A stretch of 64,000 nucleotides of DNA, from positions 496,001 to 560,000 of the forward strand of contig OZ017758.1 of assembly GCA_963969365.1 (NCBI GenBank), given 5' to 3'. The notes below the pieces were generated by a model that had not been told where the DNA came from, did not search any database, and was given only the letters and a program-made list of their open reading frames with translations. Positions 7,264 to 24,338 of the stretch are shown one piece after another (positions within the stretch are counted from its first letter, which is position 1; each line of letters starts with the position of its first letter). Both the position numbers and the translations under genes were made by a program. The stretch is from Asterochloris sp. CNOR1. Its lineage: Eukaryota > Chlorophyta > Trebouxiophyceae > Trebouxiales > Trebouxiaceae.

Positions 7264-9717
7264 ATGTCTCGCTGCATGGCGACTTCTCGGCAGCAGCGCC
7301 TTGTTTGGGATGAGGCCCAGACCCTTCACAGCAAAGGCTTTGTTGTGTTTCCTGTGACTCTATGGGATGACAACGGGCAGAAACGTGCCAAGTTTCCAAA
7401 CGCCTGGCAGAGGTGTGCAACACTCTCAACATGTCTCTCTCTGTTTGACGACTTTGACTTCAATGGCCTGGCAATCAAGACCGGGAAGGAGAGTGACATA
7501 TATGTGGTTGACGCAGACGTCCTCAAGCCAAAGGATGCTGAGGAGGGCTTGAATGACGGCGTGGAAATCCTGGAGAACAAGTTTCAACAGAATGGAGAGA
7601 GCATGGAAGATTATCTGATGGCAAGCACAGCCAACAAGGGGAAGCACCTGTATTTCTCATACAGCAAGAGTGACGCCGCTGGCCTCAGACAGCTCAGCAA
7701 CACCGCCAAGATCAGCGTGGACGGCATCAAGACGACCATTGACGTCAGGGGAGAGGGCGGATGCGTTTTTGCAGCCCCCACATCATTTAATGGGAAGAGC
7801 TATGCTTGGATGAGTGAGGTTCCAAGGACGGAGGATCTCTCACCCTGCCCTCCCTGGCTGATCAGCCTACTGAACGATGGCGCCAAGCAGAGGCCTAAGG
7901 CACCTAAGCGCAACCTCAATGATAGTGCCACACCAGGACAAACAAACAGTGTGACGAGGCAGCGCATGATAGAGGGAGATGGCAGTATGACACTCTATGA
8001 AAACCCTGGCCTGGAGCTCCAAGATGTGCAACCACGGATAGAAAGTGAGCTTGGCGTGCAGATCAAGAACTGGTATCCCAGGCCCTATGGAGGTGACTTC
8101 CATGTCGTGGACAAGCTCGCCCATTGCGGCATATGTATTGTACACGTTCATACATCCAACGGCTACACCTGCAACGTCATCATACCGCCATGTTGCATCA
8201 TCAGGAACTACTCACCTCAGTGCCATGCAAAAGTCATCGGTTTGGAAGATGTGCCATCGCTTCAGGCCATCAGGTTTGACCCTCACAGCGATGATGCCTT
8301 TGTCGACATGTTTGTTGAACACCAGCGATACCGCGGCAGAAAGTGGCTGTGGTTCAAACAGGAGGCTTGCTTCCTCAAGTACGATGGCACCTTGTACAAG
8401 CGCATGGATAAGGAAGACATTGGGCAGGACATCATCGCAGACTGCTCTGACCTTGTGACCAAGCTTGCAATAGCCTTCAATCATACGCTCTACCTGCTGA
8501 AGCTCAAGAACGAGACCCCTCCAAAAGATATGGACAAGTGGAATGAAAGCCTCATGAAGGCCAGCAGATATCTGCACAAGGCCGCTGCCCTCGACCACAT
8601 CATCAAGCGAGCAGTGTACAAGTTGTATGACAGCTCGCTGCAAGACAAGATGGACATGGACCCCAACCTCATTGGCTGCAAGAATGGCGTCATCAATCTG
8701 GAGACGGGGGAGCTGATCAACAACAACCCTAAGATGTACGTCAGCAGGCAGGCTGGAGTGGAGTACAGGGGCCTGAACCATCCATCACCTGACATAGATG
8801 CCTTCCTGTCCAGCATCTTCAACGACGACGAGGGCGTCATCAAGTACATGCAACGTCTGCTAGGCTATGGCATGACGGGCCTGTGCCGTGAGGAGGTCTT
8901 CGTCGTCTTCTATGGAGCTGGAGGCAACGGCAAGAGTCTGTTGAATAAGCTGATAAAGGGTGTCCTTGGGCCTTACTGGAGCACCATGTCCCGTGACTGC
9001 GTCTTCAAGAGCGAGCGCCGCGCCGGCCCTGGAGCTCCCAGCCCGCACCTTGCCATGCTGAGGGGATTGCGCATTGCTGTTCTGGATGACTGCAATGAGC
9101 AGGAGGTCCTTGACGATGGCACCATCAAGAAGATGACCAGCGGAGTGCCTATGGAAGCTAGAATGCTGAACCAGAACCCAGTGATCTTCACCCCCACCCA
9201 CCTCGCCATCGTCTGCACCAACCACCTGCCCAAGATCAACGTGGATGATGAGGCTATTGAACGCAGGCTGGTGCTGACCCCGTTTGCAAACAACTACCGC
9301 GCTCCAGACAAGTTTGACCCTGAGAACCCCACTCACAGGCCCATTGACATGACTCTGGGCGAGCGCTTGGATACACCTGAGGTTCTGGAGCAGTTCCTGT
9401 CTTGGATGGTGAGGGGAGCAGTGGCCTGGTACAAGGAGGGGCTGGGAGCTAAGCCAGCGGCCCTGTCGGCGGCGCAGGAGGAGTACTACCAGGAGAATGA
9501 CGTCTTAAGTCGGTTCATCAGTCATCATTGCAGTGTGGGGTCAGAGTACAGAGTGCACAAGACAGTATTTCAGAACGCCTGTTATGCTGTGTCTGAGTCA
9601 CACATAACACCTGGTGAAATGGAGAAGAAGATGGCAAAAAGGGGATTCCCTGTCAGACAAGTCACCATTGATGGTGTGAAGAACAGAGGGTACATTGGCA
9701 TTGCACCACTGATGTAG
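7264..9717 (+). CDS. D5-type primase-polymerase / SF3 helicase (virus-like), intronless, 817 aa
   Basis: N-terminal part is an archaeo-eukaryotic primase/PrimPol domain: IYVVDADVL (metal-binding acids, about residue 80), GKHLYFSY (histidine motif, about 130), and IDVRGEGGCVFAAPT (about 160). A D5_N-like linker follows (WLWFKQEACFLKYDG). Then comes a complete superfamily-3 helicase: Walker A GAGGNGKS (about 555), Walker B RIAVLDDCNE (about 605) and sensor/motif C HLAIVCTNHLPKI (about 645), with the arginine-rich ERRLVLTPF. The C-terminal 70 residues resemble the winged-helix end of phage and virophage primases. It would prime and unwind DNA for replication. The ORF has no intron, unlike nearly all neighbours. 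The layout is known in polinton-like viruses, virophages and giant viruses. All key motifs look intact. Confidence 0.93.
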   Translation: MSRCMATSRQQRLVWDEAQTLHSKGFVVFPVTLWDDNGQKRAKFPNAWQRCATLSTCLSLFDDFDFNGLAIKTGKESDIYVVDADVLKPKDAEEGLNDGVEILENKFQQNGESMEDYLMASTANKGKHLYFSYSKSDAAGLRQLSNTAKISVDGIKTTIDVRGEGGCVFAAPTSFNGKSYAWMSEVPRTEDLSPCPPWLISLLNDGAKQRPKAPKRNLNDSATPGQTNSVTRQRMIEGDGSMTLYENPGLELQDVQPRIESELGVQIKNWYPRPYGGDFHVVDKLAHCGICIVHVHTSNGYTCNVIIPPCCIIRNYSPQCHAKVIGLEDVPSLQAIRFDPHSDDAFVDMFVEHQRYRGRKWLWFKQEACFLKYDGTLYKRMDKEDIGQDIIADCSDLVTKLAIAFNHTLYLLKLKNETPPKDMDKWNESLMKASRYLHKAAALDHIIKRAVYKLYDSSLQDKMDMDPNLIGCKNGVINLETGELINNNPKMYVSRQAGVEYRGLNHPSPDIDAFLSSIFNDDEGVIKYMQRLLGYGMTGLCREEVFVVFYGAGGNGKSLLNKLIKGVLGPYWSTMSRDCVFKSERRAGPGAPSPHLAMLRGLRIAVLDDCNEQEVLDDGTIKKMTSGVPMEARMLNQNPVIFTPTHLAIVCTNHLPKINVDDEAIERRLVLTPFANNYRAPDKFDPENPTHRPIDMTLGERLDTPEVLEQFLSWMVRGAVAWYKEGLGAKPAALSAAQEEYYQENDVLSRFISHHCSVGSEYRVHKTVFQNACYAVSESHITPGEMEKKMAKRGFPVRQVTIDGVKNRGYIGIAPLM

Positions 9718-10240
9718 TATAGGAACAAAGGATACGATTCAAAACAGAACATTCATAAAAAAATCAACCGCCCATAGAGTCCTCCTAGAGCATAGTGTCA
9801 AACATTGTATCCGCTGAATCCCACACCAGTGTCATGATGTGTGTTTCTTATCAGTCCATCAAATGCTGCTGATAGCTGGTATGTTGCCTCAAGCATTGTG
9901 ATTTGTGTCTCCTTGTGCTGCCAAGTTCAATGATACGACACCTGTGTTTTTGTAACATGATAATGATATTTGCAAATCACATCCTTGATACTGACAGCAC
10001 TACAAATTGCCGCATAAGACAAGTCCACAGTAACTCTTCATCTTAACGCCATCGATAGCCAGCGTTTTGTTGCAGAAACCCTTTTTCAACATGATAGAGC
10101 TGAACATGCGTGGAGTGTCTTGAGTACTGTATTCTGCAAATGCTTTCTGAAAGTCTGACACTGCCACACGGCCATTTGAGACTACTTTGCAGTTATTGAT
10201 GATGAATTCGTCTAGAGAAGGCTTGCAAGCCTTGTCATCC

Positions 10241-10300
10241 AGCCGTGAGTTGCAGTTATGTCAGCGACTGCGTGGCTTCTGCAAATGCTGACCCAGCTTG
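10241..10300 (+). repeat. Relative of the 26-bp iteron-like repeat near 20.3 kb
   Basis: Shares CCAGCCGTGAG-TGCAG, TGTCAGC-ACTGC and the exact 17-mer GCAAATGCTGACCCAGC with the array at 20261-20430. Only one expanded unit is present here. It lies about 520 bp after the stop of the D5-type gene. Confidence 0.65.
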
Positions 10301-10401
10301 TAGGAATGGCATATGACAGGACTGTGTGTTCAACTTAGAGAAGGCATTGCAACACACTTAAAGGGGCAAAGGCAAGGCCCTATAGTAGCTGGTTGGGGCT
10401 T

Positions 10402-10448
10402 GTTTGGGGTTTTCTTTATTATAACCCGTCAGGAAGTCGTTTGGGGTT
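10402..10448 (+). repeat. Dispersed GTCGTTTGGGGTT motif, copies 2 and 2b
   Basis: GTTTGGGGTT at 10402-10411 and the full GTCGTTTGGGGTT at 10436-10448, 34 bp apart in the same direction, within a T/G-rich tract. The full copy shares GAAGTCGTTTG-GGTT with the copy at 19583. Confidence 0.6.
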
Positions 10449-10961
10449 ATCGTTATGGGTTTCTCCAGAACCCCTGATCGCCATACTGGTGCCACCACCC
10501 TCATATGTGACTGCATTTCAAAAAGCACTTGTTCAGACTTCGGCTGGCGGAAAGGGGTACTCATGCCTGATGATGTGTGTTTTACATCCAGCGAATTTGC
10601 CCATACTCAGACTACACAGATATGCTCAGACCTAGGTGCCTAACTATGGACAGCAGAACCAGACAGTATCTGAACCAGACAGTATCAGCCTATTTGTGGA
10701 TCTGAGGACACCTGTTGCAGATCACTTTGACCACTGAGCTTCCTACACCAGGAACCAATTGCATTCTATCGATACATGAATTTGATGAAGTCACAACATG
10801 AATGAACTGGGTCAGGGGAGTGTTTCAAAGCTGCAAGCTCGAAGTCATTACGGTTGATGATCTAAAGCTGGGAGCCAAAGAGTCCTGGCCACTTTTCACT
10901 GCCTGATTAATCGCAGTCTCCCTTGGCAATCTGGCATACATGAGTGCAATATGCTTCTACA

Positions 10962-11633
10962 CTACTTGTGTATGTGCCAAAAGAAATCAGTCATTGCCTT
11001 GATGTCACTCCAAATGGTTGCTTCATATCCGTCAATGGGGCCATAATGCTGGATATACACTTCTCTGTAATGTGATTCAAGGAGGCACTTGACTACAACA
11101 GGACCCCCTGTGCCCAAAACAAGTAGGGGTGTAGCATAGATGGCTTGCAGCACCCAGTGGTCTGGTAAAGGTCTGGCAATGCCTTGCAGAAAGATGCTTG
11201 TGCCAACATTGAGAAGGTGCAGGTGAAGACAAGAGACCAGTCTATTGTCTGAAAAAACCAGCAGCCATCCATGACAGGCATACACAATGCTAGTGCAGTC
11301 TGTATCAGATAAAACAACAACTGCCACAAATGCGATCAAGCTCAGGGTGAAGACACGGCCGCTGGCACGTTCATCGACTGAAACCATGGGGTGCTGCCAG
11401 CAGACCTTGATGGACAGCAGAGCACCCATGAGTGTGGTCGTGGCAATCATTGCAGCTAGCTGATACCTTGCTAGATTGTGCATAAAACATGCCATGATCA
11501 AGGAAGCTGCCACGCACAACCAGATGATGGCAGCAAAGACCGCTGTGACCAGTGGCAACAGCCAGGTCTGCCTATGGTGGAACACTGAGTAGAGATGTTC
11601 GTCCTCTGAATGTGGAAACGTGCGCAGCAGCAT
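10962..11633 (-). CDS. Polytopic membrane protein of unknown function, 223 aa
   Basis: Uninterrupted frame with at least five hydrophobic helices: WLLPLVTAVFAAIIWLCVAA (about residues 25-50), YQLAAMIATTTLMGALLSI (57-75), a pair around VFTLSLIAFVAVVVL and YACHGWLLVF (95-130), and YATPLLVLGTGGPVVV near 170. The hydrophilic ends suggest an integral membrane protein with a short cytosolic tail (YEATIWSDIKAMTDFFWHIHK). A TCTGCAG just before the ATG could be an acceptor, so 5' exons are possible. No family recognised. It is transcribed toward the D5-type gene. Confidence 0.55.
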   Translation of the reverse strand: MLLRTFPHSEDEHLYSVFHHRQTWLLPLVTAVFAAIIWLCVAASLIMACFMHNLARYQLAAMIATTTLMGALLSIKVCWQHPMVSVDERASGRVFTLSLIAFVAVVVLSDTDCTSIVYACHGWLLVFSDNRLVSCLHLHLLNVGTSIFLQGIARPLPDHWVLQAIYATPLLVLGTGGPVVVKCLLESHYREVYIQHYGPIDGYEATIWSDIKAMTDFFWHIHK

Positions 11634-12230
11634 CTGCAGAGCACCACAACATCACAAGACTGCTTCTTGTGAGCCTCTGACGACAGATTGCAGTGGCCTC
11701 ACCCTGATGCCAGTTGCCTCACTGCACCACAAGCTCCCAGAGGACTAATGTGGCTCCTGCACAGGGCAGTCAAAAGGAAGGCTCTAATCCTAGCATCAGC
11801 ACAGCCTTGGCATGCCAGGCAGAAGCCAGAGAGGATAGCACCCACCTTGTGTAGGCTGCAGGTTGCGAAGGGGGCCGCTAGGATCGGAGAGTGGGTGCTC
11901 TAATGCTCTGATGTGCTAAGAAGAGTGCCTCAGACACATCGAAATCCTTATCACTAAAGCAGCTTGACTTAAAATTCAAACCCTGCTAGAGTCCCACAGC
12001 TGTGGGCTGTTATCGAAAATTCGCGGGGAAGGACACGACTGATCATCACACAACAATCACAGAAGGACAGACAAGCTATGAGCAGCTTGGCCAATGTAGG
12101 CTCACATCGCGTGGACTGCAACTCATTTGCTACAGGTTGGTTGGTTGTTGATGGCCAAGTTGTGGGGCATTCATCTGCACAATGCACTATAATCCTGCCT
12201 GCTCGAGGCGTGTTGGGCTCACATTGCTCC
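11634..12230. other. Intergenic region, divergent upstream sequence
   Basis: Lies between the minus-strand membrane-protein gene and the plus-strand F-box gene, so it should contain both promoters. Short open frames (for example 11688-11903 and 12078-12449) have no motif or neighbour support. No repeat or RNA gene seen. Confidence 0.4.
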
Positions 12231-12231
12231 A

Positions 12232-13432
12232 TTGTGCAATGCAGACCTGTCAGTGGACCTGCTTGTGCTGATACTGTCCTGGATTCCCCTCAGCAAGAGC
12301 AAGCTGGCTCTACTGTTGGTCGGGAAAGTGTGGCATGCTGCCATGACCAATCCAGCGGTGCATATGCGCATCCCAGCAGATTGTCTCAGCATGGGGCCTG
12401 CAGCACCCAAGTTGCAGAATGCCATCCTCGTTGCCATCCCCGCGCTTGAGGTGACATGTGGAATGGGGTGAGCTGCTGCTGCCGCTGCACACGCGTTTGC
12501 TCGGCACAGCCCATCTGGCATCGCCTTCGCGACGGCGGCGAAGTGCTGACCGAAGGTCAGGTGGCAGCTAGAATGCCTTTGGCATTCCTGCGGGGACTAC
12601 GTCCCCCTAAAAGCTATGCTTTGTGATCGCCCTGCGGCGATGCTAGCGAAGGCCAGAGCGAAGCTCACATCGTGCGCCAGGGGCGACCATTGACTCCATT
12701 GCCGCATGCAGGAATAACCTTGGCTGGCTTCCAAAAGGCCTCCGCTGGCTAATGTTGCGCCACGAGCCCAGTTATGCCCTGGTGGCAAGCCCAGGGGACT
12801 TCTCCATGTACCTGGGCTACCTGCCTCATCTTGAGACTCTCGCGCTGTGCGATGGCTGGCTGCCTCAACTGTGCCTTGTCGCGCCTGCGCTTAAGCTACT
12901 CAGCATCCGAATCTACGAGCACATGACCTCCAAGCTACAGTCACTGCAGCGCCACCCTACCTTGCAGACAATCATGATGAGTATTGAGACCTTGCCAAGC
13001 CCTAATCATCTCCCTCTGTTCCTCCCTGAAGCTTGCACGGTGAGCAACCTGACGACAAGATTTCGCCTTGGAGATGTCTCAAGTGGCCTGCCACCTCCAC
13101 CATTTTTGCCCCGCATCTTCAACATGACAGCCTCCACACACGAGCCGACTGAACTTCACAAAACAGACCTTGCTCCCGTCAGCGCCTGCTCCATGTTGCG
13201 TACGCTCACCATCATTGTGCTTGGGGACAAGCTCACCCTGTGTGGCATCCATACTCTGCCTCCCAGCCTCAGCCTGATCATGATTCGCTGGGAACCAGCA
13301 CACCCGCCAGCTCATCTGTTCTACCAGATAGTCCCCGGCTGGGGTTGCAGGCTTGCTAGGCCCAACACGCAAGACATGCTCCACCTCTATCGCATCCCTG
13401 GAGTTCCTCAGCTGAGCAATGTTGCCATGTGA
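12232..13432 (+). CDS. F-box / leucine-rich protein, two or more exons
   Basis: Exon ending at 12467 carries a canonical F-box: LSVDLLVLILSWIPLSKSK followed by LLVGKVWHAAM. The intron is 12468-12711 (GTGAG...TGCAG) and the frame resumes exactly at 12712. The second exon (to 13432) holds degenerate leucine-rich segments (LGYLPHLETLALCDGW, LVAPALKLLSIR, SACSMLRTLTIIVLG, LPPSLSLIMIRW). F-box proteins serve as substrate receptors of SCF ubiquitin ligases; the leucine-rich part would bind the target. No in-frame ATG is seen right before the F-box, so a 5' exon is probably missing from this call. The intron carries an array of six perfect hairpins (12525-12641). Confidence 0.7.
12525..12641. repeat. 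Array of back-to-back perfect short hairpins inside an intron
   Basis: Six stem-loops follow each other in 117 bp: CTTCGC/GCGAAG (12525-12543), CTGACC-GAA-GGTCAG (12546-12560), GAATGCC-TTT-GGCATTC (12571-12587), GGGGAC-TAC-GTCCCC (12592-12606), AAAGC-TAT-GCTTT (12610-12622) and ATCGCC-CTGC-GGCGAT (12626-12641). Stem sequences differ, but stem length (5-7 bp) and loop length (mostly 3-4) are conserved. It sits in the intron of the F-box/LRR gene. Confidence 0.85.
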
Positions 13433-13798
13433 TTCATTCAGACCCGTGCATGCACAATAACAAGCAAAGCTCAAAGGTTGCTCAAAGATGCTTACTAGTA
13501 GCCCCCTTATACTTGCCAAATGGAATCAAGCCCAATTGGCTGCTGGGGTTTTGCGGCAAAGCGTTGCCGTTTGGCAACACTAGCGTTAGCATAGCGGCAG
13601 GGCCTCTGACCCCGCACAAGAACCTTGGGTTCTCTGCCTTTGCCGCATCGCCGCAGGGCGTTGGCAACTGGGGGTGTAGCTGTAGTCATCTGTTTGTACA
13701 TAGCTTGAAGTGTCCTGATATTGAAGTTGTCTGTTCCTCTAAACTCAACCCAACTAGCAGATGATGTATGCCAAGAGTATTGAACAGGAAGTTGGACA
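13433..13798. repeat. Convergent intergenic region with hairpins
   Basis: Lies between the ends of two convergent genes. Contains perfect hairpins CGGCAA/TTGCCG (13554-13569), GTTGCC-GTTT-GGCAAC (13563-13578; the two overlap and could be alternative folds) and GAACC-TTG-GGTTC (13620-13632). No gene recognised. Confidence 0.65.
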
Positions 13799-14553
13799 TC
13801 ATCCTTCATAAAACCCTGAGGTAAGTGACATGAACTTGAATGGCGCTTCCAGCAGGTCATGGAGGGCAGACAGGGTGGCAGGAGCTTTGCCGTTGAACCT
13901 CTCAAGGACCACCTTCTGGACAACTTTATCCACCTCCCTCGTCAACAGCGCTTCCCCAAAAAAAATCCAAATGGCACCTTTATTCCCTGGAAAATCAGGG
14001 TGCGTCTGCCGCCTCGCCAACTGTGGGGACCAAAATCTACCTCCCAACGCCGGCTGCTGCTTTGCCAGCTGTGGGGGGTCCATGAACAGACGCGTTGCCA
14101 GCTCCTTGGGGTCCAGATCGACAGCCTGCAGTGAAAGCAAAGCATACTGGCCAGCGGTACTACTAGCATCGCAGGTGCGCAAGTTCCTGCAAAGGCCTTT
14201 TGCCCTGCCTATCCCACCTTCATGTCCTGCATGATGCCTGCAGAGTAGTAGGGTGTGCCAAGCATGCGCTCTGCTTCAGCAGCCACAGCAGACGCCTCCA
14301 GGTTTATATCGTCTGCCAGCTGTCGCAGACGGGTTCTATGATCCATGAGGTCTTGAGGCAGGTGCTGCAGCACCGGGGCAAGCTCTGCTCTCTGCTGCAG
14401 CAGGGCCCCTTCCTTCACAGCAGGGTCTTCCAGATAGGCCTTGAGGCATCCCTGAGTAGCCCAGGCCACTGCTTCCAGGTAGGCCACAAAAAGCAAATCT
14501 GACCTTCGCTGACCACTTGCATCACTAGCCTTGCTTGAAGCTGAAGGCAACAT
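13799..14553 (-). CDS. Two-exon protein of unknown function, 220 aa
   Basis: Exon 1 is 14553-14218, the intron 14217-14126 (GTGGGA...CTGCAG, 92 bp) and exon 2 is 14125-13799; the frame is kept exactly and gives 220 residues. Exon 1 is helical (LLFVAYLEAVAWATQGCLK, RLRQLADDINLEASAVAAEAER). Exon 2 has VDLDPKELATRLFMDPPQLA, GAIWIFFGEALLTREVDKVV and a helical end. No family recognised and no membrane helix is certain. Immediately 5' of the ATG lies a cluster of six ACGT cores (14554-14594). It follows the zinc-finger gene on the same strand by 167 bp, so the two might be co-regulated. Confidence 0.65.
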
Positions 14554-14594
14554 ACGTGAGACGTCACACGTCGAACGTCACATACGTAGAACGT
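14554..14594. promoter_or_regulatory. Six ACGT cores at 7-bp spacing directly upstream of a start codon
   Basis: ACGT occurs at 14554, 14561, 14568, 14575, 14584 and 14591, so the steps are 7, 7, 7, 9 and 7 bases. Contexts include GACGTCAC and CACGTC. ACGT is the core bound by plant and algal bZIP and bHLH factors. The cluster abuts the ATG (14553) of the 220-residue gene on the minus strand, in its 5' leader or promoter. Confidence 0.6.
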
Positions 14595-14720
14595 GTTCAG
14601 AGGGATCGGTAGTAATAGTTGACTGTGAGATTTAGAGTCTGATGCCAGAGTTCCCAGCAACCCCTGCTATCTTGAGAGAGCTGAGGAGGTGCTCACTGTT
14701 TCATTGGCTTTGAGGTCGAC

Positions 14721-15918
14721 TCACTCAGAAATCTCAGGCAAACCATCAGGAAAAGAACATTCATCAAACTCATTGATCTCATCAACCTGCTTTCTCTTGA
14801 GGTCCTCATAGTCCTCAATTGCCAAGTCATGCCTGTCTTCAACCGTGTTTATCAGAGCAATGATATCCTCCTGCAGATACTAGGATTGGTGAGTGGCAAG
14901 GCGAAGCAGGACTATTCCACGCAAAGCAAGACAAATCATCACCCGCTTTTTCTTCAGCGATGACAGCTCGTTAGCCACCTTCTCCACAACCTTGCGCTTC
15001 TCCACACGTTGGCGGCCATGGACCTCCCGCAGTCTAGCTCTGTCGGCAAGATTTCTGGCACTGATGCTCATGCGGCCACTCTCCAGGATCTCGTCAACAT
15101 GCATCTGATAGGGAGAGGGCGAGGGGTGGGGTAACCCCCCCGCTGATGGGGAGTTGCCAGGCTTTGGTGAAGTTGGCCCCTCTAAATCCCCCCCATTGCT
15201 TGTGCCAACGTACGGGTCCGCGGCGCGGATGCTAGTACCAACCTGCAGAGTGGGTGTTCTTCAAGTCTGCCATGCATAGAGCTGCATGCTGGCAGGTTTT
15301 AGGGGAAAGGGACTTTGTCCCATGAAAGCACCTCTGTAAGCGCTTACCTCCTCATCTTCAATGGGTCTCTGGGCCACAGACGAAGACACCTGCGGGCAAG
15401 CCTCAAGCAGCTGCTTCACCGCAGCAGATGGCTTGCTGATCAGCTTGGTGGGTCTGATGATCTTCTCCCCGGCCTCGTCCACGGCCTCCAGCTGACAAAG
15501 ATGATGTTGAGCCCCTCTGCCCTTAGGCAGCTTCCTGCAAGGTGGTTGGAATCTCCGTTGCAAATTGAGTGAGCACACAGCAGTGTCAGTTAGGTGGGAA
15601 ACAAACTCACATCTTGTGTGTTTTCATGTGCTCCCTCCAACGCTTAGGGTCAAGGTATCCTAGCACTGGGCACTCTGCCACAGGGCAGACGTGTGCAGGC
15701 CTGAGAGCCCCAGCACCATCACTGGACTCCCCATCTACCAGCCACACTGCATAGTTGGCTTGGAGCTGCTCCAAGGTGATGCCCATGAAAGGGTTCTTGT
15801 GGCCAGCCTGGCGCCAGGTGCCAAGGTCTGTTGCATGGTTGGCAGAGACTTTGTGCTGCAGCCATTGTGGTGGCACCATGCTCTGCTTTTCACATACGGT
15901 TTGCAAACTGTCACACAA
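14721..15918 (-). CDS. C2H2 zinc-finger protein, four exons, 314 aa
   Basis: Exons 15918-15611, 15534-15348, 15242-14943 and 14870-14721 join in perfect phase (lengths 308, 187, 300 and 150) with GTGAG/GTAAG/GTGAT donors and TGCAG acceptors. Exon 1 ends in one C2H2 finger: CPVAEC then REHMKTHK (spacing C-x4-C-x12-H-x3-H). Exon 2 contains LEAVDEAGEKIIRPTKL. Exon 3 is Pro/Gly-rich, then basic and coiled-coil-like (REVHGRQRVEKRKVVEKV). Exon 4 is acidic (EDIIALINTVEDRHDLAIED) and ends FPDGLPEISE. A nuclear DNA- or RNA-binding regulator is likely from the finger; partners are unknown. The upstream start could be longer. Confidence 0.7.
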
Positions 15919-15972
15919 AGTGCAACCTCAGTGCCTAGGAGCTGACATAAGGCAAGGGTCTGCTTGAAAGCA

Positions 15973-16043: not shown

Positions 16044-16183
16044 CCCTGTGCCTGCGCCCTATGCCTGCGCCCTCTGCCCTGTGCCCTCTGCCCTAGGCCT
16101 GGGAGGCGCTCTTTTCCTTATTTAGAATCCCAGCTGATCAATCAACTGCAAGCACAAAGGGGAGGCCTGTTGTCCCTCGAACA

Positions 16184-16199
16184 CCTGCTACGTAGCAGG
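16184..16199. repeat. Perfect 16-bp palindrome
   Basis: CCTGCTACGTAGCAGG reads the same on both strands. It lies about 90 bp upstream of the start codon at 16290 and echoes the CTACGTAG core at 15973-15982. Confidence 0.8.
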
Positions 16200-16289
16200 C
16201 GCTCTGCTCCTTATTGAGCAAACACCACTGCTAGGTTGTCTGCTGCAACGCCCTGTGCCACTGGAAATCGTGTAGGTTTTGCTGGCGTG

Positions 16290-17079: not shown

Positions 17080-17234
17080 ATGGGAGACCTCCACCTCAGC
17101 ACTGAAGATGAGAATGCTGCTGTGGCTGCCATCCCAGAGGAAGAATAGGCTGCCTCTTCTGTGTGGTAACAGCAGTCATGCTTGTGTTCACGTATGCCAA
17201 CCTTGTGCTTTGTGTCCAGAGGTGCCCGTTCAAT

Positions 17235-17964
17235 TTAGAGGTGCCTTTGCGACTCAAAGAGTTCAGCCCATTTGAAAGGCTGCAGCTTGAACATGGGTGC
17301 AGGCCACAGCGTGATGTGTCCCTCCTGATAACAAGTGCTCTGCCAGTCAAGCAGAACTGAGTGGTTCAGCTGATCAAACAGGTGCATGTGGGCCATGTTG
17401 CTGACGATGCAAACTTTGCCATTGGCAATGTGCTTGACAACATAAGCTAAGAGAGAACTGAGGTCCATCTTGCCTGGTAAATGTGCTTTTCTGGGAAAAT
17501 TGACCGCAACACCTCAACAGCTGCCTCAGAAGCAGCCTCTAGGCCTTCTGTGGGCTCCAATGTGTCGTCCTCCATCACAGGGGTTGTATAAACAACACTT
17601 AGCCACTCTGCAACCAACCACATAACACAGCTAGCTGGTGTGTATTGGCCTGCTGTCACTGCTGCTCACCAGTGAAGTCCACCAGGTAGCTCCACTGCAC
17701 ATGTGCATTGCTTCCAGACCACCCACTCTCCACAGCTGATCTCAGAGCTTCGCTGATGTCTGGAATTGCTGACTGTGGAACTCTCCATGTTCCTGGGCAG
17801 AGCTGAGTGGTTTTGGGTGGCTTGATGCCTCTGTGCAGCTGTCTGCAGCAGAACCGAAGCTGCACAACATCGTAGTCGCACAGGAGTGCAGCTATGCACT
17901 GCAGCAACACATCCTGCAGAGCTGTGATGTTGACCATGGCCGCTTCTTGGGGCCTTGCGTTCAA
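17235..17964 (-). pseudogene. F-box-like protein gene, copy 1 (frame-broken by 1 base)
   Basis: Begins with an F-box-like helix set, ITALQDVLLQCIAALLCDY then VVQLRFCCRQLHRG, continues with TWRVPQSAIPDISEALRSA, and is split by an intron (donor after DFTG, acceptor TTGCAG before WLSVVYTTPVMED). Near 17471-17474 it has one base fewer than copy 2, so the last part (DLSSLLAYVVKHI ... HITLWPAPMFKLQPF) is in another frame. A rare GC-AG intron could in principle rescue this. The copy at 25907-26594 is uninterrupted here but broken elsewhere. The original protein was probably an SCF receptor-like protein. Confidence 0.65.
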
Positions 17965-18039
17965 TGCCTGAAAGCTGGGGCTTGGGGTTGAGTTCGCAAG
18001 AAGCCCACAGCTGTGGCAACCCTAGCTAGGTTTTTGACA

Positions 18040-18400
18040 GTCTTGCTAAATAAAGGGCTCATTCATCCTCCTGAGGGGCTTAGCACCTTGAGCTGCACAA
18101 AATGAGACAGGGTGGAGCGCCTTGTCCAGGATGATGATGACTCAGCGCGTCAGACTCACAGTCAGCGATTGCTCAGCGCACATCCAGATTCAGCGTCATG
18201 GAGTCCCTATCTAGATTTTGTGACATTTTACAGCACACTTTGTGAAGGCAGCAGGTGTATCTACAGCTTGAGGTGAGATCGGCCTACGCCGATATGGCCG
18301 CATGGCCATCTGAGCTGTTGCTGACCCTTTCTGTCTCCTGTACACCTGCCTAACAGGCCTGCTGCAATTGCCAAGGCTTGACTACTGCATCCTGTGACTG
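18040..18400. repeat. Intergenic region with two adjacent perfect hairpins
   Basis: ATCGGC-CTAC-GCCGAT (18278-18293) and ATGGCC-GCAT-GGCCAT (18294-18309) abut with no gap. They lie between F-box-like copy 1 (minus) and the peptidase gene (plus). Another hairpin, GCCGC-ATA-GCGGC (18511-18523), sits in the next gene's presumed intron. Confidence 0.7.
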
Positions 18401-18402
18401 TA

Positions 18403-19416
18403 GGAAAATCCAGCGGCGCGGCTTTGCTGGGCGCATTCAGGGAGGTACTAGGAGCGTTGCACACCTCAGAAGTGAGTATGGGGCTGTGTCTGGGCGCGAC
18501 TACGTTGCTAGCCGCATAGCGGCGCCAACAGCTGACTGTGTGTCTGAACAGATGTGCTTTGTGCTGCAGAGGCCATGTTCCCCAGCCAGGGCTGCCAGAA
18601 TACTCTTCGTATTGCCGTGCTGCCCAACAGCAGTGAGCAGCCACCCCCCCCTCCAAAAGCTTTTGGGACGGGGTTCCTGCTCAAAAAGGCCTTGCACCCT
18701 GAGCGCAGCGACATCCGCCTTGTTCAGACCAACGAACATGTGCTCAATGCGGCAGGAAAAGCGCCTGGTGCCATTGTGGTCATTGATGCCAGTGGCATTT
18801 TTGCCCTGGTCAGTGCAGTGGTGTTTGACACAACACTTGACCTGGCTGTGCTCCTCACGAAGCATCCCTACGATGAGCGAGAAGGCCTGGACATAGTGGA
18901 CACAGACCATATTGAGGTTGGCTCACAGGTAAAGGTTTTCTTAACAACTGCTGAGCCCCTCGACGCCCCTCTTCATCCTGATATGCCTCAATGCAGGTTC
19001 ACACATGGGGCTTTCCGTCACCATATGATAGGCTTGTGCCATTACTGGCTGTGGGCCACATTTCTGGTCATACAGAACGGGACGTATTCCTCAACATGGC
19101 CATCAACGCTGGCAACTCTGGAGGTGCTGTTCTTGACGAGAATGGCAAAGTGGTAGCTGTTGTTAAAGAAAAATATATATCAGGTTATGCCGAGCTGGCA
19201 GTGGATCTGTCAGGCTTGCAAGCCGTCACTGGTGCAGCTCAGCTGTCGGTTGGGGACCACAGCGTAGATTTGGGTGCTGTGATCCACAGAGCAATCACCT
19301 TTACCCATGAAGCATCACAGCTGGTTATGGGGATTGCTATCAGAGCTGAAGTTGTCAGGGGTTTTCTTGTTGCCCACATTCCAGCTTTGTATGCTGTCTC
19401 CCCCCAGCAGCAATGA
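18403..19416 (+). CDS. Trypsin-like (Deg/S1C-like) serine peptidase, spliced
   Basis: A likely first exon (about 18403-18470: SSGAALLGAFREVLGALHTSE) precedes exon 18570-18928 and exon 18997-19416; the last intron (18929-18996, GTAAAG...TGCAG, 68 bp) joins in phase. The fold's landmarks are in order: FGTGFLLKKA (start of the first barrel), VQTNEHVL (histidine), TTLDLAVLL (aspartate), then INAGNSGGAVLDENGKVV (serine in GNSGG). The full catalytic triad is present. Family knowledge: such peptidases act in protein quality control or, in mobile elements and viruses, in maturation. No transit or signal peptide could be assigned because the start is uncertain. No PDZ domain is seen, so it is shorter than typical Deg proteins. 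Confidence 0.78.
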
Positions 19417-19582
19417 TCTTCGCCCGCTCGGACAGTGGCTGTTTATTGAGCTCGTTGATGAAGCGCTGTGCTTTTGCATCATGAGCTAGAACAAAGCTGC
19501 CTGATATGATCTTTGGCATGTTTGTTCCTCCTTAATTACAAAATATTTCTTGTGTCAAATTGTGCAGCTATGTCGTCAAGAA

Positions 19583-19595
19583 GTCGTTTGAGGTT
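19583..19595 (+). repeat. Dispersed GTCGTTTGGGGTT motif, copy 3 (one mismatch)
   Basis: GTCGTTTGAGGTT; with flanks it shares GAAGTCGTTTG-GGTT with the copy at 10436. It lies 3' of both the peptidase gene and the convergent 19634-20242 gene. Confidence 0.5.
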
Positions 19596-19633
19596 CATTA
19601 ACATGCCAGATGTGTACAGACTGCCACAGCTCA

Positions 19634-20242
19634 TCATGTGAAGCAACTCAGCAACCAGCACTTGCTCTCATGCACAACATCTGCAGTGTTCCAAGGACCA
19701 CCGTCTGCACAGTCTGCTATCAGCTGCAAGCGGGCAGTCAACCCTTTGTTTGGCTTGGCCTCTTCTTGTGCTGCCTGTAGCAAGTCTTCATTGGCAGCAA
19801 CAAGTCTGCCTTCAGAGATCTGTGTGGCCATAGCATGCAGGGTAGGGAATGCCTCTGGTCTCAGTGTTGAAGCCTTCTTCCAGTTTGGTGCTCCAGTCCC
19901 CTTGCTGCGAAACTGGTACTGGACCAGATGTTGTGCGGCCTTCGCCGCCATTGCAAATGCGATTGCAAGCGCATTGACACTGTTCAGTCCAAGTGCATCT
20001 AGGCTCTGGATAGCAGCCTCAATGCCAGCAATGTGAGCACAGCTCACGGCGTGCGCGCAGGCGCACTTCGCCAGGCGCGGAGGCGTGCCAAGCACCCTGG
20101 AGCAATTCTCCAGCTTCTCTGCTATCACTCTCAACTTGCTCAAGGCCTTCCTGCAAGTTGAGTCGCTGTCATACAAGTTTTGTCTGGCAGGGCTCTGCCC
20201 GTGTGCGCATGCACAACCCAGCATCAATGCAGCAGTTGCCAT
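19634..20242 (-). CDS. Alanine-rich helical protein of unknown function, 202 aa, intronless
   Basis: Single frame from ATG at 20242. It has a hydrophobic Ala-rich start (MATAALMLGCACAHG), a helical middle (RKALSKLRVIAEKLENCSR, VNALAIAFAMAAKAAQHLV) and a C-terminal part with LRPEAFPTLHAMATQISEG and LLQAAQEEAKPNKG. No domain recognised. The start codon lies within the perfect hairpin 20235-20250, and the coding region contains further hairpins (GTGCGC-GCAG-GCGCAC at 20051-20066; GCGGC-CTTC-GCCGC at about 19935-19948). A decayed relative of its 3' part is found at 25530-25860. Confidence 0.55.
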   Translation of the reverse strand: MATAALMLGCACAHGQSPARQNLYDSDSTCRKALSKLRVIAEKLENCSRVLGTPPRLAKCACAHAVSCAHIAGIEAAIQSLDALGLNSVNALAIAFAMAAKAAQHLVQYQFRSKGTGAPNWKKASTLRPEAFPTLHAMATQISEGRLVAANEDLLQAAQEEAKPNKGLTARLQLIADCADGGPWNTADVVHESKCWLLSCFT

Positions 20243-20250
20243 TTGGCAAC
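20235..20250. promoter_or_regulatory. Perfect hairpin over a start codon
   Basis: GTTGCC-ATTT-GGCAAC: a six-base stem and four-base loop. The ATG of the minus-strand 202-residue gene (20240-20242) lies at the stem/loop junction, so the hairpin, if formed in the transcript, would occlude the initiation site. Confidence 0.55.
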
Positions 20251-20260
20251 AGTCTCCTTG

Positions 20261-20430
20261 GCAAATGCTGACCCAGCAGTGAGTGGCAGGTGTGTCAGCA
20301 ACTGCATCGCTTCGGCGAAGGCAGACCCAGCCGTGAGCTGCAGATTTGTCACCCAGCCGTGAGCTGCAGATTTGTCACCCAGCCGTGAGCTGCAGATTTG
20401 TCACCCAGCCGTGAGCTGCAAATTTGTCAT
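20261..20430 (+). repeat. 26-bp tandem repeat array (iteron-like) upstream of the primase/OBP gene
   Basis: From about 20326 four near-identical 26-bp units follow in tandem; each reads ACCCAGCCGTGAGCTGCAG then ATTTGTC, the last with one change (CTGCAAATTTG). Just before (20261-20325) is a diverged expanded unit, GCAAATGCTGACCCAGC ... TGTCAGCAACTGC, matched by the single element at 10241-10300. It lies about 330 bp upstream of the presumed primase/OBP start. Confidence 0.85.
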
Positions 20431-20569
20431 CAAGCTTTCAGGCAGTGAGTCCCCTTTTCCTGTTCTGATTCAACATCATCACAGCCACCAGGCAGCTACA
20501 AGAGCCCATGCCCATCATTGCATGTTGTAGGCTTGTGGCATCGACAGCCCTTGTCACACTCTCGTTGCC

Positions 20570-20600
20570 CTTCGGCAACAGTGGGCAAAGGCCCACGACA
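20570..20600. repeat. Two adjacent hairpins upstream of the primase/OBP gene
   Basis: GTTGCC-CTTC-GGCAAC (about 20565-20580) is followed by GTGGGC-AAAG-GCCCAC (about 20581-20596). The first stem is the same GTTGCC/GGCAAC as at 13563 and 20235. Confidence 0.7.
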
Positions 20601-20761
20601 TTGATTGGCCGTGGGGCACTTTGACCTGCCGTGACCTCCTTTGGGCACTTCATAATGGACTTCGCCCCACTCTTTTTACACAAACATCTGAGACACTCCC
20701 ACCTCCACAATGCCATCAATCCCAGCCCATTGGAGCTCTGTGGCACCATCGCAAAGCACCA

Positions 20762-23700
20762 ATGAGAGAAGATGCTGCCCTCATGAATGCCAAGGCGGAG
20801 CTACAAGTCAATGAGCCTGACCATGGCTGGCATATGTTTGGTTGCTACAAAGACTGGCCAACAGCAATGAAGTCCCTGAGGCCACTCAAGACTCAACACA
20901 GACATCTCTTCGAGCTGATTGTGAACCAGAAGCCATGCAAGCCTCATGCTGATTTCGACAGAAAAGCTGGTCTGCCAGAAGGCTGGACAGTTGAAAGCTT
21001 CATGGCAAGAGCGACATCGATCATCATTGACATCTTCAAAGGTGACTATGGCCTGACTTTATTGCCATCTGATTTCTGCTGGACCTTGTCTCCAAACCAG
21101 GCAAAGTTTAGCATGCACTTGGTGATTTCCACGCACAGTCCTCAGTATGTCTTTGCAACTAACATGTGGGATGGAGCTTGGCACCTGGCAAGGCGCATTG
21201 TGGAGCTTGATGAAGAGATGCGCGAAGTTGTTGATTTGGGCATCTACACCAAGGATAGAGCCATGAGGATGCTAGGCAGCAGCAAGTATGACAAGAAGCA
21301 GTCTGTACTTGAAGCATTGGACCCCTCTCAGGAAGTGCGCGACCATGTCATCACCTGGTTGGACGACAACACCCAGGTCATAACAGTCCCAGAACAGATC
21401 CCAGTTGCTCTGAAACGCCGAGCAAAGCCCAGAACTGTCTACGACTTGTCAAAGGCAGCCAGAGAGGACCCAAGTGTCTTGTCCCTCAGAATGCTTGAGC
21501 TCTTCCAGCAGCAGGTGCATGCCTCAGGCTACATTTGGAGCGCTGGCGATTTTGACCCCTACAACTCTGGAGTGGGCGTGCGTCTCAACTACACTGACAG
21601 GACTGAGAAGTGCTACACCGGTAATGTACACTCTGGCAACCAGAACCTGCGTGCCTGGGTTGAGGGAGAGGAGATCTTGCTTAAGTGCTGGAGCGACCGA
21701 TGCAGTTCAGCACCGCCATATCGATTGGGCCCAGTGGCTCCCATACCCACCACCTATTTAGAGCAGGCTGTACATGTCAACATGAAGTACTTGACCAGAG
21801 ATAAGCATGTGGCCACGGCTGGGACCATTGACAACCTCTTCCAAAAGAGGGAAGAGGACGTCTACAAGCTGAACCAGGTCATGGAGGACTGGAGGAGTGG
21901 TGACTTTGCTGCACTTAATATCAAGGCACCCATGGGTGAGTGGAATTGCCATCTTTGATGCTGGTAATGCTTGTGGCAAAACCCCAAACGACGAAAACTC
22001 CAAACGACGACGATAACCCCAAACAATATAAACTTCAAACAACAACAACCCAAAACGATGCCTATATAAGAGCAAAGGCAATCTCATCCTTGATGCTCGG
22101 CGGGTCTCTGACTGTCCCTAGCGCTGACTTGCAGGCTCAGGGAAGACCACGCTGCTCAACACGCTCATTGACGAATGCGCGCCAAACACAGTGTTGATAA
22201 TCACATATAGACAATCACTGGCACAGGAGCTGGGGAGGAAGCTGAAAGACTTTGACGTGTACCTTGATGTTGACCCAAATGACTTCCCAGGCTTGGAGAG
22301 CGAAGAGAAATACCCCGAAGTTGTAGTGCAACTGGACAGTCTGGGACGCCTGTCTCCAACAACAATCAGGCGGTTTGACATTGTTGTTGTTGATGAGATG
22401 GTCTCTGTGCTCAGGCACATCTCTGCAAATACCTTAAGCCATGCCATGCACATGGTTGGCTTGCTGATGCACCATTTGCAGAAGGCGTCCAAAGTCATCA
22501 CCATGGATGCCTTCTGGAATGAGGACTGCTTCCAGTTCCTGAAGCGGCTTGATATACCTCAGAAGCTTGTCATCAATGACTTCAGGCCACCCCCAAGGAC
22601 ATACAGATGGACAAGAAATGAGGCATTGCTTGTGCAACACATCAAGGAGGACCTCATTGCCGGCAAGAATGTTGCAGTAACATCCATGTCCAGTGAGTTC
22701 TGCCATCGCTTGATGCGCCAGCTGCTGGACGAAGGGATACTGACAGAAGAGGAGATCATCATGCACACTGGCATGACTGATGACAAGTTGCGGGCGAAGC
22801 TTAAAGATGTAGACGTACTCTGGGTGCTAGCCAGACTCCTCATCTACTCGCCAACCATTGAGTCAGGTGAGAATGGCTTTCAACACTAGTAGCAAGAAGG
22901 GCGATCCCACAGCATAGAAGCTGTCAGTTCCCCTAGCGCTTCCTCATCGGGGCCTGCTGTCCCGGCCTTCGTCAGTATCATGTGCCAAGCACAGTACAGT
23001 ATATGGTGCAAATGTCAAGATGCAAAGCACTTGCGTAAGGTCTCTGGTATGGCAAGGCTTGTATCTTATATAGCACCCATGATGCGCTCCGTGCCACACC
23101 ACGAGAGAGCATATACAGTACCTCAACCCACAGAATGCTACCTGAGTGTAGGTGTCGACTTCTCAACAAGGCATTTTGACAAGCTGTATGTCTACGCCTG
23201 CCTCATGTCAACCTCGCCGCATGGGCTCATGCAGATGACTGGTAGAATCAGACATCTTGGGGATAGCACAGTCTTGTGCTGCGCCGCACCTTCCATCTCC
23301 TTTCGACCAAAGGACCCCTCACCCAAGATTCTGGCCCTGGAGCAACTGCAGTTCCTGAGGTGGGTGGAAAAAAAGGTTGGCGGTGCTGGTGGTAACATCA
23401 ACACTGAGCTGCACAGAGTTGAGGGAGGTGGCGAAATGCTTTTGCCTCTGGATGATGCAGCAGCCTATGCCTTTGCTGCGAATGAGGCTGAACGCATCAA
23501 CGGGCAGACTCGATTTTTCCTGGAGCTTCAGCATCTCATGCAAGAGGCAGGACATATTGTGGTCATCAATGATGAGGCAAAGGTTGAGGCGCCCAGTCAT
23601 GACTTAAGTATAAGAAAGCAGTGGTTGCTGCATGGTCGCGACATCAGCGAGGAAGAGTATGCAACAATGCAGAACAACATCGTCAGGCGTCAGGCAAGCG

Positions 23701-24338
23701 AAGAAGAAAAGTGGTTAGCATATCGTTTTGAGTACATGGAGGCCTGGGGCCTTAGCAAAATCAATGAGGAGTTCATCTCTGCAAATGGAACGCGTTGTGG
23801 TTGCCCGAAGCTGTCAAGGCTTCGCAGATTGCTTCAGCCTGCAGCCGCACGCTACTGCATTGCAGAGCGTGAGTTGACGCCTGCACAAAAGCAAGATATC
23901 ATGCGCATTGGGGCAGTGGAAGAGGTCATTGAGGCGCTGGGGCTCAGTGGACCCTTTGACACTGCTCACACTGTTGAGGACATCGCATCTGGCGAGGTAA
24001 ATGAGCGCTTGCTGAGCACTGAGTGCTTCAAAACATGGAACGACATGCGAAAAGTGTTCAGCTCACGTATCGGCAAGGTGGAGGACTGGAAACTGACATC
24101 CATCAGGACAACCATTGGCTCAATTCTCGACAGCATTGGCCTGCGATTGGTCAGAACTAAAAGAGTCAGAAAGAAATGTGAGGACTCAGTCACGACCACT
24201 TACCAGTATCGCCTCAGTCCAGATGATGTCACAACCATGAGGGAGCTGCTGGCATTGAAGGACGGCGATGTTGAAGGTGCAGGCAAGTGGAAGGACCTCG
24301 TGCCTCCCCCACAACCCTGTGGTATCAAGCCCACATGA
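20762..24338 (+). CDS. Archaeo-eukaryotic primase fused to UL9/OBP-type SF2 helicase, three exons, about 1030 aa
   Basis: Exons 20762-21935, 22135-22866 and 23152-24338 (1174, 732 and 1187 bases) splice in exact frame through GTGAG...GCAG and GTGAG...GTAG introns. Exon 1 is a PrimPol/UL52-like primase: PHADFD (metal site), KFSMHLVIS (histidine motif), DLGIYTKDRAMRMLGSSK, then a zinc motif with CYTGNVHSGNQNLRAW and LLKCWSDRC. The join creates Walker A PMGSGKTT; exon 2 gives FDIVVVDEM (motif II), VITMDAFW and AVTSMSSEFC; the second join completes SPTIESGVDFSTRHFD, and exon 3 has QMTGRIRH (motif VI). Giant-virus and herpesvirus origin-binding proteins have this helicase. It probably initiates DNA replication. 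The start is the first good ATG; a longer N-terminus is possible. Confidence 0.9.
21936..22134 (+). other. Intron 1 of the primase/OBP gene with degenerate AACCCCAAACGAC repeats
   Basis: 199-bp intron (GTGAG...TTGCAG) that interrupts a glycine codon of the P-loop. It contains five degenerate copies of the dispersed motif in reverse orientation, starting at about 21980 (exact), 21996 (AACTCCAAACGAC), 22015, 22031 and 22047, spaced 16-19 bp. The tract is strongly A/C-biased on this strand. Confidence 0.8.
23044..23102 (+). repeat. 59-bp direct repeat, copy A (inside intron 2 of the primase/OBP gene)
   Basis: Reads CTGGTATGGCAAGGC..., has a central TCTTATATAG and ends GTGCCACACCAC. It matches 24359-24417 with four differences in 59 bases. 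The host intron is 22867-23151. Confidence 0.85.

Follow-up and report, generated by a model that had tools for sequence, protein, structure and literature searches.

Two open replication-initiator genes in a probable, eroded giant-virus relic of Asterochloris sp. CNOR1

Introduction

Why does the chromosome of a green alga carry two replication initiators of virus type within one neighborhood? The question is raised by a stretch of 64,000 nucleotides (hereafter the window) on a 2.57-Mb contig (C13) of the 56.4-Mb assembly of Asterochloris sp. CNOR1. The window bears the genes for a D5-type primase-helicase (D5) and for a protein with an AEP primase domain and a UL9-type helicase (OBP). Excerpts of a published survey call D5 universal in Nucleocytoviricota and list AEP-UL9 proteins in mimiviruses and ASFV, and the two kinds therefore coexist in such viruses (PMC11253617). 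The initial annotation considered the locus either a relic of a large virus or a replicative mobile element. Our analysis makes it highly probable that it is an eroded and rearranged insertion, or set of insertions, of Nucleocytoviricota type, from viruses of an Asterochloris-like green alga, with the initiators still intact.

Results

The island and its neighbors

The island spans ~24 kb, at about 6-30 kb of the window. Its GC content is 0.521 (52%), compared to 0.584-0.588 (58-59%) in the flanks, where exons of a guanylate kinase and a calpain lie on the left and those of a carboxypeptidase and a lyase-family protein on the right. A composition unlike that of the host and host genes at both borders are features of giant endogenous viral elements. 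Such elements, however, run to tens or hundreds of kb in which viral genes predominate, whereas the island has ~24 kb and few intact viral genes; we therefore file it as a relic, without the status of a full element. Misassembly joining viral to algal DNA is not suggested, given the host genes on both sides and the relatives at other loci. The BRO, RNase III and other viral-looking genes at this locus are fragments, while the two initiator frames are open (Table 1). No Bro-N domain was found beside the BRO-like frame in the window.

Table 1. Positions of features in the window
Feature	Position	Strand	Remarks
RNase III-domain fragment	5071..5493	-	85% identical piece on C15, 4.5 kb after D5
AACCCCAAACGAC, 13-bp motif	7139..7151	+	112 nt before the D5 start codon
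D5-type primase-helicase: Prim-Pol, D5_N, SF3 helicase; 817 aa, intronless	7264..9717	+	open frame, Pfam, family alignment
Convergent open frame (86 codons), similar to the D5 C-terminal domain	10000..10260	-	E 7e-6 against D5
AACCCCAAACGAC motif	10436..10448	-	upstream of the convergent frame, same strand as that frame
Broken frames	13510..14577	-	similar to C15:977239-979106 (one 312-codon frame there) and C3:3773683-3774832
Blocks without recognized gene	14698..15835	.	89-94% identical to C3:3782107-3783239 (reverse)
Direct repeat flanking the OBP gene, left copy	17213..17958	+	86-89% between copies
Frame like the C-terminal part of a BRO-family protein	19637..20374	-	relatives on C15 and at C13:2.05 Mb
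Four 26-bp iterons	20325..20429	+	upstream of OBP
OBP exon 1, AEP primase domain	20762..21935	+	sequence comparison
AACCCCAAACGAC motif in OBP intron 1	21980..21992	+	within a 16-bp tandem repeat
OBP exon 2, UL9-type SF2 helicase motor with P-loop	22135..22866	+	Pfam
OBP exon 3, later SF2 motifs and C-terminal domain	23152..24338	+	sequence comparison
Direct repeat flanking the OBP gene, right copy	25873..26611	+	86-89% between copies

The statement that no recognizable genes of host metabolism lie between D5 and OBP agrees with a Pfam scan of the 11 frames there, a scan that intron-split genes could escape. Its sole signals, both below cut-off, were a trypsin-like match at 18548-19413 and Rap1_C (E 0.035). 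Across 25 distinct Pfam-scanned frames (window 1-34 kb, where intron-split or diverged genes could likewise escape), no integrase, transposase, capsid, packaging ATPase or polymerase was seen, a LINE reverse transcriptase being the exception. The hallmarks of polinton-like viruses, virophages or transpovirons (double-jelly-roll capsid, packaging ATPase, integrase, protein-primed polymerase) were also absent from these frames. Genome-wide, the capsid profiles PF04451 and PF16903 had no match, nor a control match, and VLTF3 had none while its control stayed silent; both are weak negatives. The A32 profile gave no match in the genome search, yet the same search missed a frame on contig C19 that hmmscan matched; none of the scanned window frames matched it.

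The D5-type gene

D5 is intact, as initially annotated, being a single open frame of 817 codons, and its start codon is supported by a homolog (P0002) that opens with nearly identical residues. The Pfam matches to D5_N (E 1.7e-13), Prim-Pol (3.5e-12) and DUF5906 (1.4e-6) all exceed the curated cut-offs. The residues D83, D85, H128 and D160 and the P-loop N555-G-K-S558, which we take to be catalytic, are invariant in a 10-row family alignment. A profile of the window D5 (P0001) matched structures of C962R, presumably the ASFV protein (E 1.3e-15), the primase 7ola (1.3e-8) and Primase D5 (1.1e-4). The island thus holds a further feature of giant endogenous viral elements, a hallmark D5 related to the viral ones.

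After scoring of 7,995 candidates, 10 proteins were listed as relatives of D5, and an alignment search listed the same 10; eight are 50-78% identical to it over 89-100% of its length. Two of these eight are named as gene models of A. glomerata (assuming that the label Astpho2 denotes this species), with the scaffold numbers 00080 and 00120. Scaffolds 80 and 120 of A. glomerata hold an integrated NCLDV of ~540 kb, according to excerpts of its description (PMC6652019). The D5 tree has long branches for the C15 copy and both outgroups, and three open forks. Scans of IMG/VR with D5 and with the D5 alignment produced 33 and 79 pattern matches, none of them confirmed. A frame similar to the convergent frame of the window follows D5 on C15 (E 3e-12), and the longer convergent gene after the C19 D5 has no significant similarity to it (E 0.91).

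The OBP gene

The initial description of OBP as an intact gene holds for its three exons, which, once two GT-AG introns (199 and 285 nt) are removed, form a frame of 1,030 aa without internal stop; it does not hold for the 5' end, as the ATG at 20762 is probably not the true one. Homology to P0013 extends upstream of this ATG to about 20729, a candidate 3' splice site (~20728) lies just before it, and no in-frame ATG is present there, so that an extra 5' exon is likely. Two spliceosomal introns are unusual for a viral gene.

Judged from its sequence, OBP combines an AEP primase domain and an SF2 helicase of UL9 type in a single chain. Exon 2 matches Herpes_ori_bp (Pfam, 8e-21). In two runs, the family profile matched solved UL9 structures (best 1.2e-28 and 1.2e-31) as well as human PrimPol, with E values of 1.1e-5 and 3.3e-8; in the second run the aligned part took in the 'DLGVYT' region of PrimPol. 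The AlphaFold model of exon 1 was poor (pLDDT 53.5, no fold match at E<=0.001), and the primase assignment accordingly comes from sequence comparison. The best of six matches to OBP was Astpho2/5840, whose number is 12 above that of the D5 model 5828 and which is thus probably on scaffold 80. The OBP alignment found three distant loci in IMG/VR among 600 pattern matches listed; in one of them (L040), a viral contig, PriCT_2 and UL9 occur with a gene resembling a telomere resolvase and with an A32 ATPase. Among relatives in phage records, none of the best 8 of 14 aligns to more than roughly a quarter of OBP. That D5 and OBP are host replication proteins was rejected, as the relatives found were viral, phage, or from algal-virus-like and other contigs.

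Recurrence of the pair in the genome

Matches to D5 occur at four places of the genome, on C13, C19, C15 and C3, and matches to OBP exon 3 on C13, at two places on C15, at 2.06 Mb on C13 and on C3. The arrangement of D5 followed by OBP on the same strand recurs: the window and C15 both have it, and C3 has it in fragmentary form. It is not strict, as C15 also bears an OBP C-terminal fragment ahead of its D5 (C15:980104). The D5 of C15 is split over two overlapping frames, and its OBP exon 1 has a frame break near the end, where a sequencing error or an intron is possible. Both OBP intron positions are identical in the two copies. Blocks common to the islands are ~6-14% different between two copies, one 99-bp stretch being identical, and lie in scrambled order. 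Bro-N genes are present in the islands of C15 and C13:2.05 Mb; a T5orf172 domain passes the cut-off at C13:2.05 Mb and falls short of it on C15.

Identity between the window and C15 copies is 36% for D5 and 76-91% for OBP, and the islands are therefore not simple duplicates of one another. The single history that the initial annotation implied for the pair is doubtful in view of this discordance. OBP may have spread or been homogenized on its own between islands, by ectopic recombination or gene conversion, a reading that is compatible with viral origin and that we hold as a tentative possibility; the nearness of D5 and OBP would then be partly a by-product of insertion hot spots. The unequal identities favor it, as do the dS of OBP, which runs from 0.11 to saturation along the gene, and the start of DNA similarity between the C13 and C15 copies only 11 nt before the shared ATG, with none significant in the 1 kb further upstream. 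The same D5-OBP order at three loci speaks against it, as does AACCCCAAACGAC, which lies in OBP intron 1 and also on both sides of D5. A recent single segmental duplication between C13 and C15 was rejected on the unrelated DNA upstream of OBP and on the identities of the two proteins.

Contig C19 (43,319 bp, GC 46-49%, long frames) looks virus-like. It encodes a D5 57% identical to that of the window, a UvrD-type helicase, TBP, a kinase, EsV-1-7 motifs and AAA ATPases. TNB (TnpB/Fanzor-like) was matched there below threshold, and A32 narrowly above its cut-off (E 5.5e-5). OBP was not found on C19, and with D5 at just 57% we rejected this contig as the direct parent of the window island.

Repeats and the mobile-element reading

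Six of the seven exact genomic copies of AACCCCAAACGAC lie in the window island (three) or on C15 (three, of which two are in OBP intron 1 and the third lies 25 kb before D5). Since the reversed control reaches a count of 8, the genome total is not elevated, the placement alone being notable, and three of the seven copies lie in the OBP introns where the motif was first seen. All six genome matches to the 26-bp iteron, with up to 3 mismatches, fall in the C13 (four) and C3 (two) islands. Both repeats are candidate origin or promoter elements, testable directly with purified OBP.

These placements, the recurrent order and strand of D5 and OBP at three loci, and the direct repeat flanking OBP would suit a mobile element of less than giant-virus size, able to replicate itself with D5 and OBP as its module and now dispersed over C13, C15 and C3. 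We consider such an element quite improbable: common boundaries are not seen, the shared blocks are scrambled, the D5 copies are far more diverged than the OBP copies, and the scanned frames hold none of the integrase, transposase, capsid, packaging ATPase or polymerase genes named above. It is more improbable still, to the point of being a long shot, that a D5-OBP module of viral origin works in the alga today, with spliced OBP recognizing AACCCCAAACGAC and/or the iterons and, together with D5, replicating or amplifying the islands or related elements in the nucleus.

Selection on the open frames

The suggestion that both genes may still be under selection is compatible with a dN/dS of 0.16 (bootstrap 0.13-0.20) for OBP between window and C15, yet this constraint may have arisen while the gene was still viral. 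The alga may have kept D5 and/or OBP, for example for virus defense or for replicating related elements, under purifying selection today. This value, the shared intron positions and the intact window frames, set beside the split D5 and frame-broken OBP exon 1 of C15, would fit such domestication. So would a simulation of neutral decay (400 runs per gene, substitutions only), in which 7/400 D5 and 1/400 OBP frames were still open at 5% change and none at 10%. We nevertheless regard domestication, itself compatible with viral origin, as unlikely. Any selection could have preceded insertion, in the virus, and at 1% change 167/400 D5 and 133/400 OBP frames stayed open; with shared blocks only ~6-14% apart, and one stretch not at all, each lineage may have seen few changes. 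Domestication and the separate spread of OBP can both be true of a viral relic.

Discussion

The reading of the locus as a relic of a large virus, the first of the two initially offered, is upheld by the A. glomerata scaffold names, the 57% identity to the C19 D5, the viral-looking neighbors, the low GC content and the succession of D5 and OBP on C15 and C3. Counted on the other side were the weak genome-wide negatives for capsid, VLTF3 and A32, the OBP introns, the discordant divergence of D5 and OBP, the OBP fragment ahead of the C15 D5, the failure to find OBP on C19, the extent of only ~24 kb and the D5 matches to 7ola and phage primases.

The preferred reading, a viral relic, would begin with an old insertion, or several nested ones, of Nucleocytoviricota-type DNA, later rearranged and mostly eroded. 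Viral origin and the order of insertions would be our interpretation of the gene content, motifs, introns, recurrence and host flanks observed here. In the virus, as family knowledge suggests, the OBP-type protein would have recognized and opened replication origins and could have primed synthesis, and the D5-type protein would have acted as a hexameric primase-helicase at the fork. In the chromosome, the recognizable viral-looking neighbors would have decayed to fragments while the D5 and OBP frames stayed open, their integrity probably reflecting constraint in viral life plus either a short time since insertion or some host use. The locus thereby offers a natural experiment on the persistence of viral replication initiators, with introns, in a host genome. 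Our data suggest that giant-virus DNA in Asterochloris-type lichen algae goes beyond one insertion, to several older eroded islands of different virus lineages.

Comparison with known systems

The locus is probably a small and much degraded viral relic, and relics of this kind have been described from such algae before. The closest case is the ~540-kb integrated, Phycodnaviridae-like NCLDV of A. glomerata, whose scaffold numbers (80, 120) recur in the names of D5 homologs and which has, in the excerpts of its description, a low GC content (49%) within an algal chromosome and 36/462 genes predicted with introns (PMC6652019). The window island differs in being ~24 kb and eroded and in the introns of its OBP; its D5 is 52-57% identical to those two homologs and groups with other contigs. 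By description, OBP resembles the AEP-SF2 (UL9-like) proteins that excerpts of PMC11253617 give for mimivirus R8, ASFV pF1055L, Ostreid herpesvirus 1 and some Yaraviridae, in which an AEP primase likewise stands N-terminal to an SF2 helicase of UL9 type; unlike these, OBP lies in an algal chromosome and has two introns. The window D5 shares the D5_N/SF3 helicase with C962R and poxvirus D5 but has a Prim-Pol (PF09250) N-terminus, and its helicase part is also ~30% identical to Lactobacillus-phage primases. The giant endogenous viral elements of Euglena gracilis, in the excerpted account (PMC12455990), are similarly eroded, transposon-invaded giant-virus insertions; the window island is much smaller, and its long intact viral frames are those of the replication pair.

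Island setting and erosion

At this locus a lichen-alga-like genome (56.4 Mb in 21 contigs) carries giant-virus-type DNA in the form of an eroded relic; the window corresponds to C13:496001-560000. The GC content is 0.521 at 6001-30000, 0.584 at 34001-64000 and 0.588 at C13:476001-492000 on the same contig, with intermediate values (0.55-0.565) in the first 6000 nucleotides of the window. Host exons flank the island, those of a guanylate kinase and a calpain on the left, and of a carboxypeptidase and a lyase-family gene on the right. Genes that are longer in the virus-like islands on contig C15 or at C13:2.05 Mb are represented in the window by partial versions only (a BRO C-terminal-like frame, and a 312-codon frame that is in pieces here), and its RNase III piece is a fragment. 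The order of elements is not conserved between the islands. The partial genes and the altered order fit old, rearranged insertions.

The Bro-N-containing stretch at the left of the window belongs to a dispersed chromosomal family that holds only BRO N-terminal residues ~63-94; such short pieces account for 26 of the 28 Bro-N matches listed for the genome. Separately, two 384-codon frames on C13 are very similar over their first 110 residues, and the one nearer the window had no Pfam match.

Features of the window and their relatives in the assembly (positions without a prefix are window coordinates; C-numbers are contigs, C13 being that of the window; percentages are identities to the window gene)
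Feature	Location	Remark
Bro-N family member	541-1275 (-)	Bro-N part 832-918
LINE-type reverse transcriptase	2435-4965	broken
D5, Prim-Pol/D5_N/SF3 primase-helicase gene	7264-9717	single open frame
D5 match	C19	57%
D5 match	C15	36%, two overlapping frames
D5 match	C3	44%, fragment
Convergent frame resembling D5 C-terminal domain	10000-10260	3' of D5; similar small frame 3' of D5 on C15
OBP, AEP-primase/UL9-type helicase gene	20762-24338	three exons
OBP exon 3 match	C15:1001619	76%
OBP exon 3 match	C15:980104	39%
OBP exon 3 match	C13:2061126	
OBP exon 3 match	C3	
~60-bp stretch in OBP intron 2	about 23047-23105	
Its repeat	about 24359-24420	shortly after OBP stop
Match to parts of each	C15:981015-981076	
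384-codon frame	C13:492925-494076	just left of window
384-codon frame	C13:2046293-2047444	beside C13:2.05-Mb island
AACCCCAAACGAC copy	112 nt 5' of D5	
AACCCCAAACGAC copy	5' of convergent frame	
AACCCCAAACGAC copy	window OBP intron 1	
AACCCCAAACGAC copies	C15 OBP intron 1	two
AACCCCAAACGAC copy	C15:959953	
AACCCCAAACGAC copy	C6	

The two replication genes

The initial annotation had described the D5-type primase/SF3 helicase as intact, and this was borne out: its 817 codons are open, and Prim-Pol, D5_N and DUF5906 each score over the Pfam cut-off. The best solved relatives are the ASFV primase C962R (E 1.3e-15), 7ola, annotated as 'DNA primase' (1.3e-8), and poxvirus D5 (1.1e-4). The protein search scored 7,995 candidates and listed 10, the same 10 as an alignment-based search; eight of these are 50-78% identical to D5. 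Six of the eight come from sources whose longest contigs are 29-74 kb, in one case 2.0 Mb, and the other two are gene models labelled Astpho2, presumably A. glomerata, with scaffold numbers 80 and 120. Scaffolds 80 and 120 of A. glomerata carry an integrated NCLDV of ~540 kb (PMC6652019), and the species was listed earlier with NCLDV markers in a table of PMC5294986 and in PMC7909515. The viral-looking neighbours, the low GC and the numbering of these relatives support the large-virus alternative of the earlier proposal. In the tree, the window D5 clusters with its relatives P0002 and P0003 (support 98/99), separate from C19 and both Astpho2 proteins.

The second initiator, OBP, has GT-AG introns and encodes a 1,030-residue protein with no internal stops. 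Exon 2 matches Herpes_ori_bp (Pfam, E 8e-21); with the family profile, UL9 structures are found, as is human PrimPol for the N-terminal part, the 'DLGVYT' region included. The fold prediction for exon 1 was poor (pLDDT 53.5), gave no structural match at E<=0.001 and lends no further support. The open frame stands as initially annotated, with its UL9 and primase matches, but that model probably lacks a 5' exon, because similarity to the relative P0013 carries on beyond the first ATG on its 5' side, as far as about 20729. Six proteins were listed in the OBP search, Astpho2/5840 being the best among them; exon 1 of the C15 copy is 97.6% identical to an Astpho2-labelled protein over 250 residues. 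An AEP-UL9 protein, 26% identical to the OBP query in its best segment, is also encoded on a 34.7-kb IMG/VR viral contig (IMGVR_UViG_3300037485_001433). On that contig the PriCT_2 and UL9 protein has an A32 ATPase and a ResT/TelK-like telomere resolvase as neighbours, all inside 10 kb. By eye, we also spotted the ~60-bp repeat of intron 2 after the OBP stop.

Related copies, constraint and age

At three loci (the window, C15 and, in fragments, C3) OBP lies 3' of D5 and shares its strand; on C15 an OBP C-terminal piece also precedes D5. For OBP exons 1 and 2 the only copies detected were those of the window and C15, the C15 exon 1 having a frame break close to its end. Between these two islands D5 is 36% identical, whereas OBP is 91%, 86% and 76% identical in exons 1, 2 and 3, and the DNA upstream of OBP showed no significant similarity past 11 nt. 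The islands are therefore not simple copies of one another. Distinct D5 lineages may have been combined with the same OBP lineage, or OBP may have been homogenised. The dS along OBP ranges from 0.11 up to saturation, and this unevenness suggests recombination or conversion.

The unplaced contig C19 (43,319 bp) reads as a piece of a large virus genome. It encodes D5, a UvrD-type helicase, TBP, a cyclic-nucleotide-binding protein, a kinase, EsV-1-7 repeats and AAA ATPases; a TnpB/Fanzor-like TNB domain was sub-threshold and an A32 match barely exceeded the cut-off. Comparison of its first 5 kb with its last 3.3 kb revealed no terminal repeats. A longer convergent gene lies 3' of its D5, weakly similar to D5 C-termini (E 0.002 and 0.012) and without significant similarity to the convergent frame of the window (E 0.91).

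The piecewise comparison of OBP between the window and C15 (986 codons, omitting 24 exon 1 codons beyond the break in the C15 frame, plus 11 of 394 exon 3 codons) gave dN 0.10, dS 0.62 and omega 0.16 (bootstrap 0.13-0.20). For D5 against C19, omega was 0.157 at a near-saturated dS (2.25); against P0002, 284 of 305 aligned residues are kept in the helicase part and 18 of 68 at the C-terminus. It had been proposed that both enzymes may still be under selection. The values above are compatible with this and show constraint at some time, possibly in the virus alone. In neutral simulations with substitutions only, frames stayed open in 167 (D5) and 133 (OBP) of 400 runs at 1% change, in 7 and 1 at 5%, and in none for either gene at 10%; a young insertion is therefore possible.

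Candidate cis elements

Allowing <=3 mismatches, a genome search with a 26-bp iteron from upstream of OBP gave six matches, four in the window and two at the C3 island; the reversed control had none. The 13-bp motif AACCCCAAACGAC has seven genome copies and its reversed control eight, so only its placement is remarkable. Since the motif was picked from the OBP introns, the independent observations are the four other copies, two of which flank D5. Its exact 10-base core was absent from the stretches examined on C19, C3 and C13:2.04-2.08 Mb. Judged by sequence, both repeats are candidate elements that may reflect an origin, a promoter or chance.

Relation to known systems

AEP-SF2 proteins of the OBP design are known from mimivirus R8, ASFV pF1055L, Ostreid herpesvirus 1 and some Yaraviridae, according to PMC11253617, and a table in PMC3493329 gives a polyphyletic origin as probable for the UL9-like NCLDV helicases (NCVOG0024). 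Among the best-ranked literature, the supplementary tables of PMC6652019 apart, we found no report of D5-OBP islands beyond the known A. glomerata insertion. This type of relic is already published for the genus; less ordinary are the intact initiator pair, the two introns common to both OBP copies, the recurrent gene order and the island-placed repeats.
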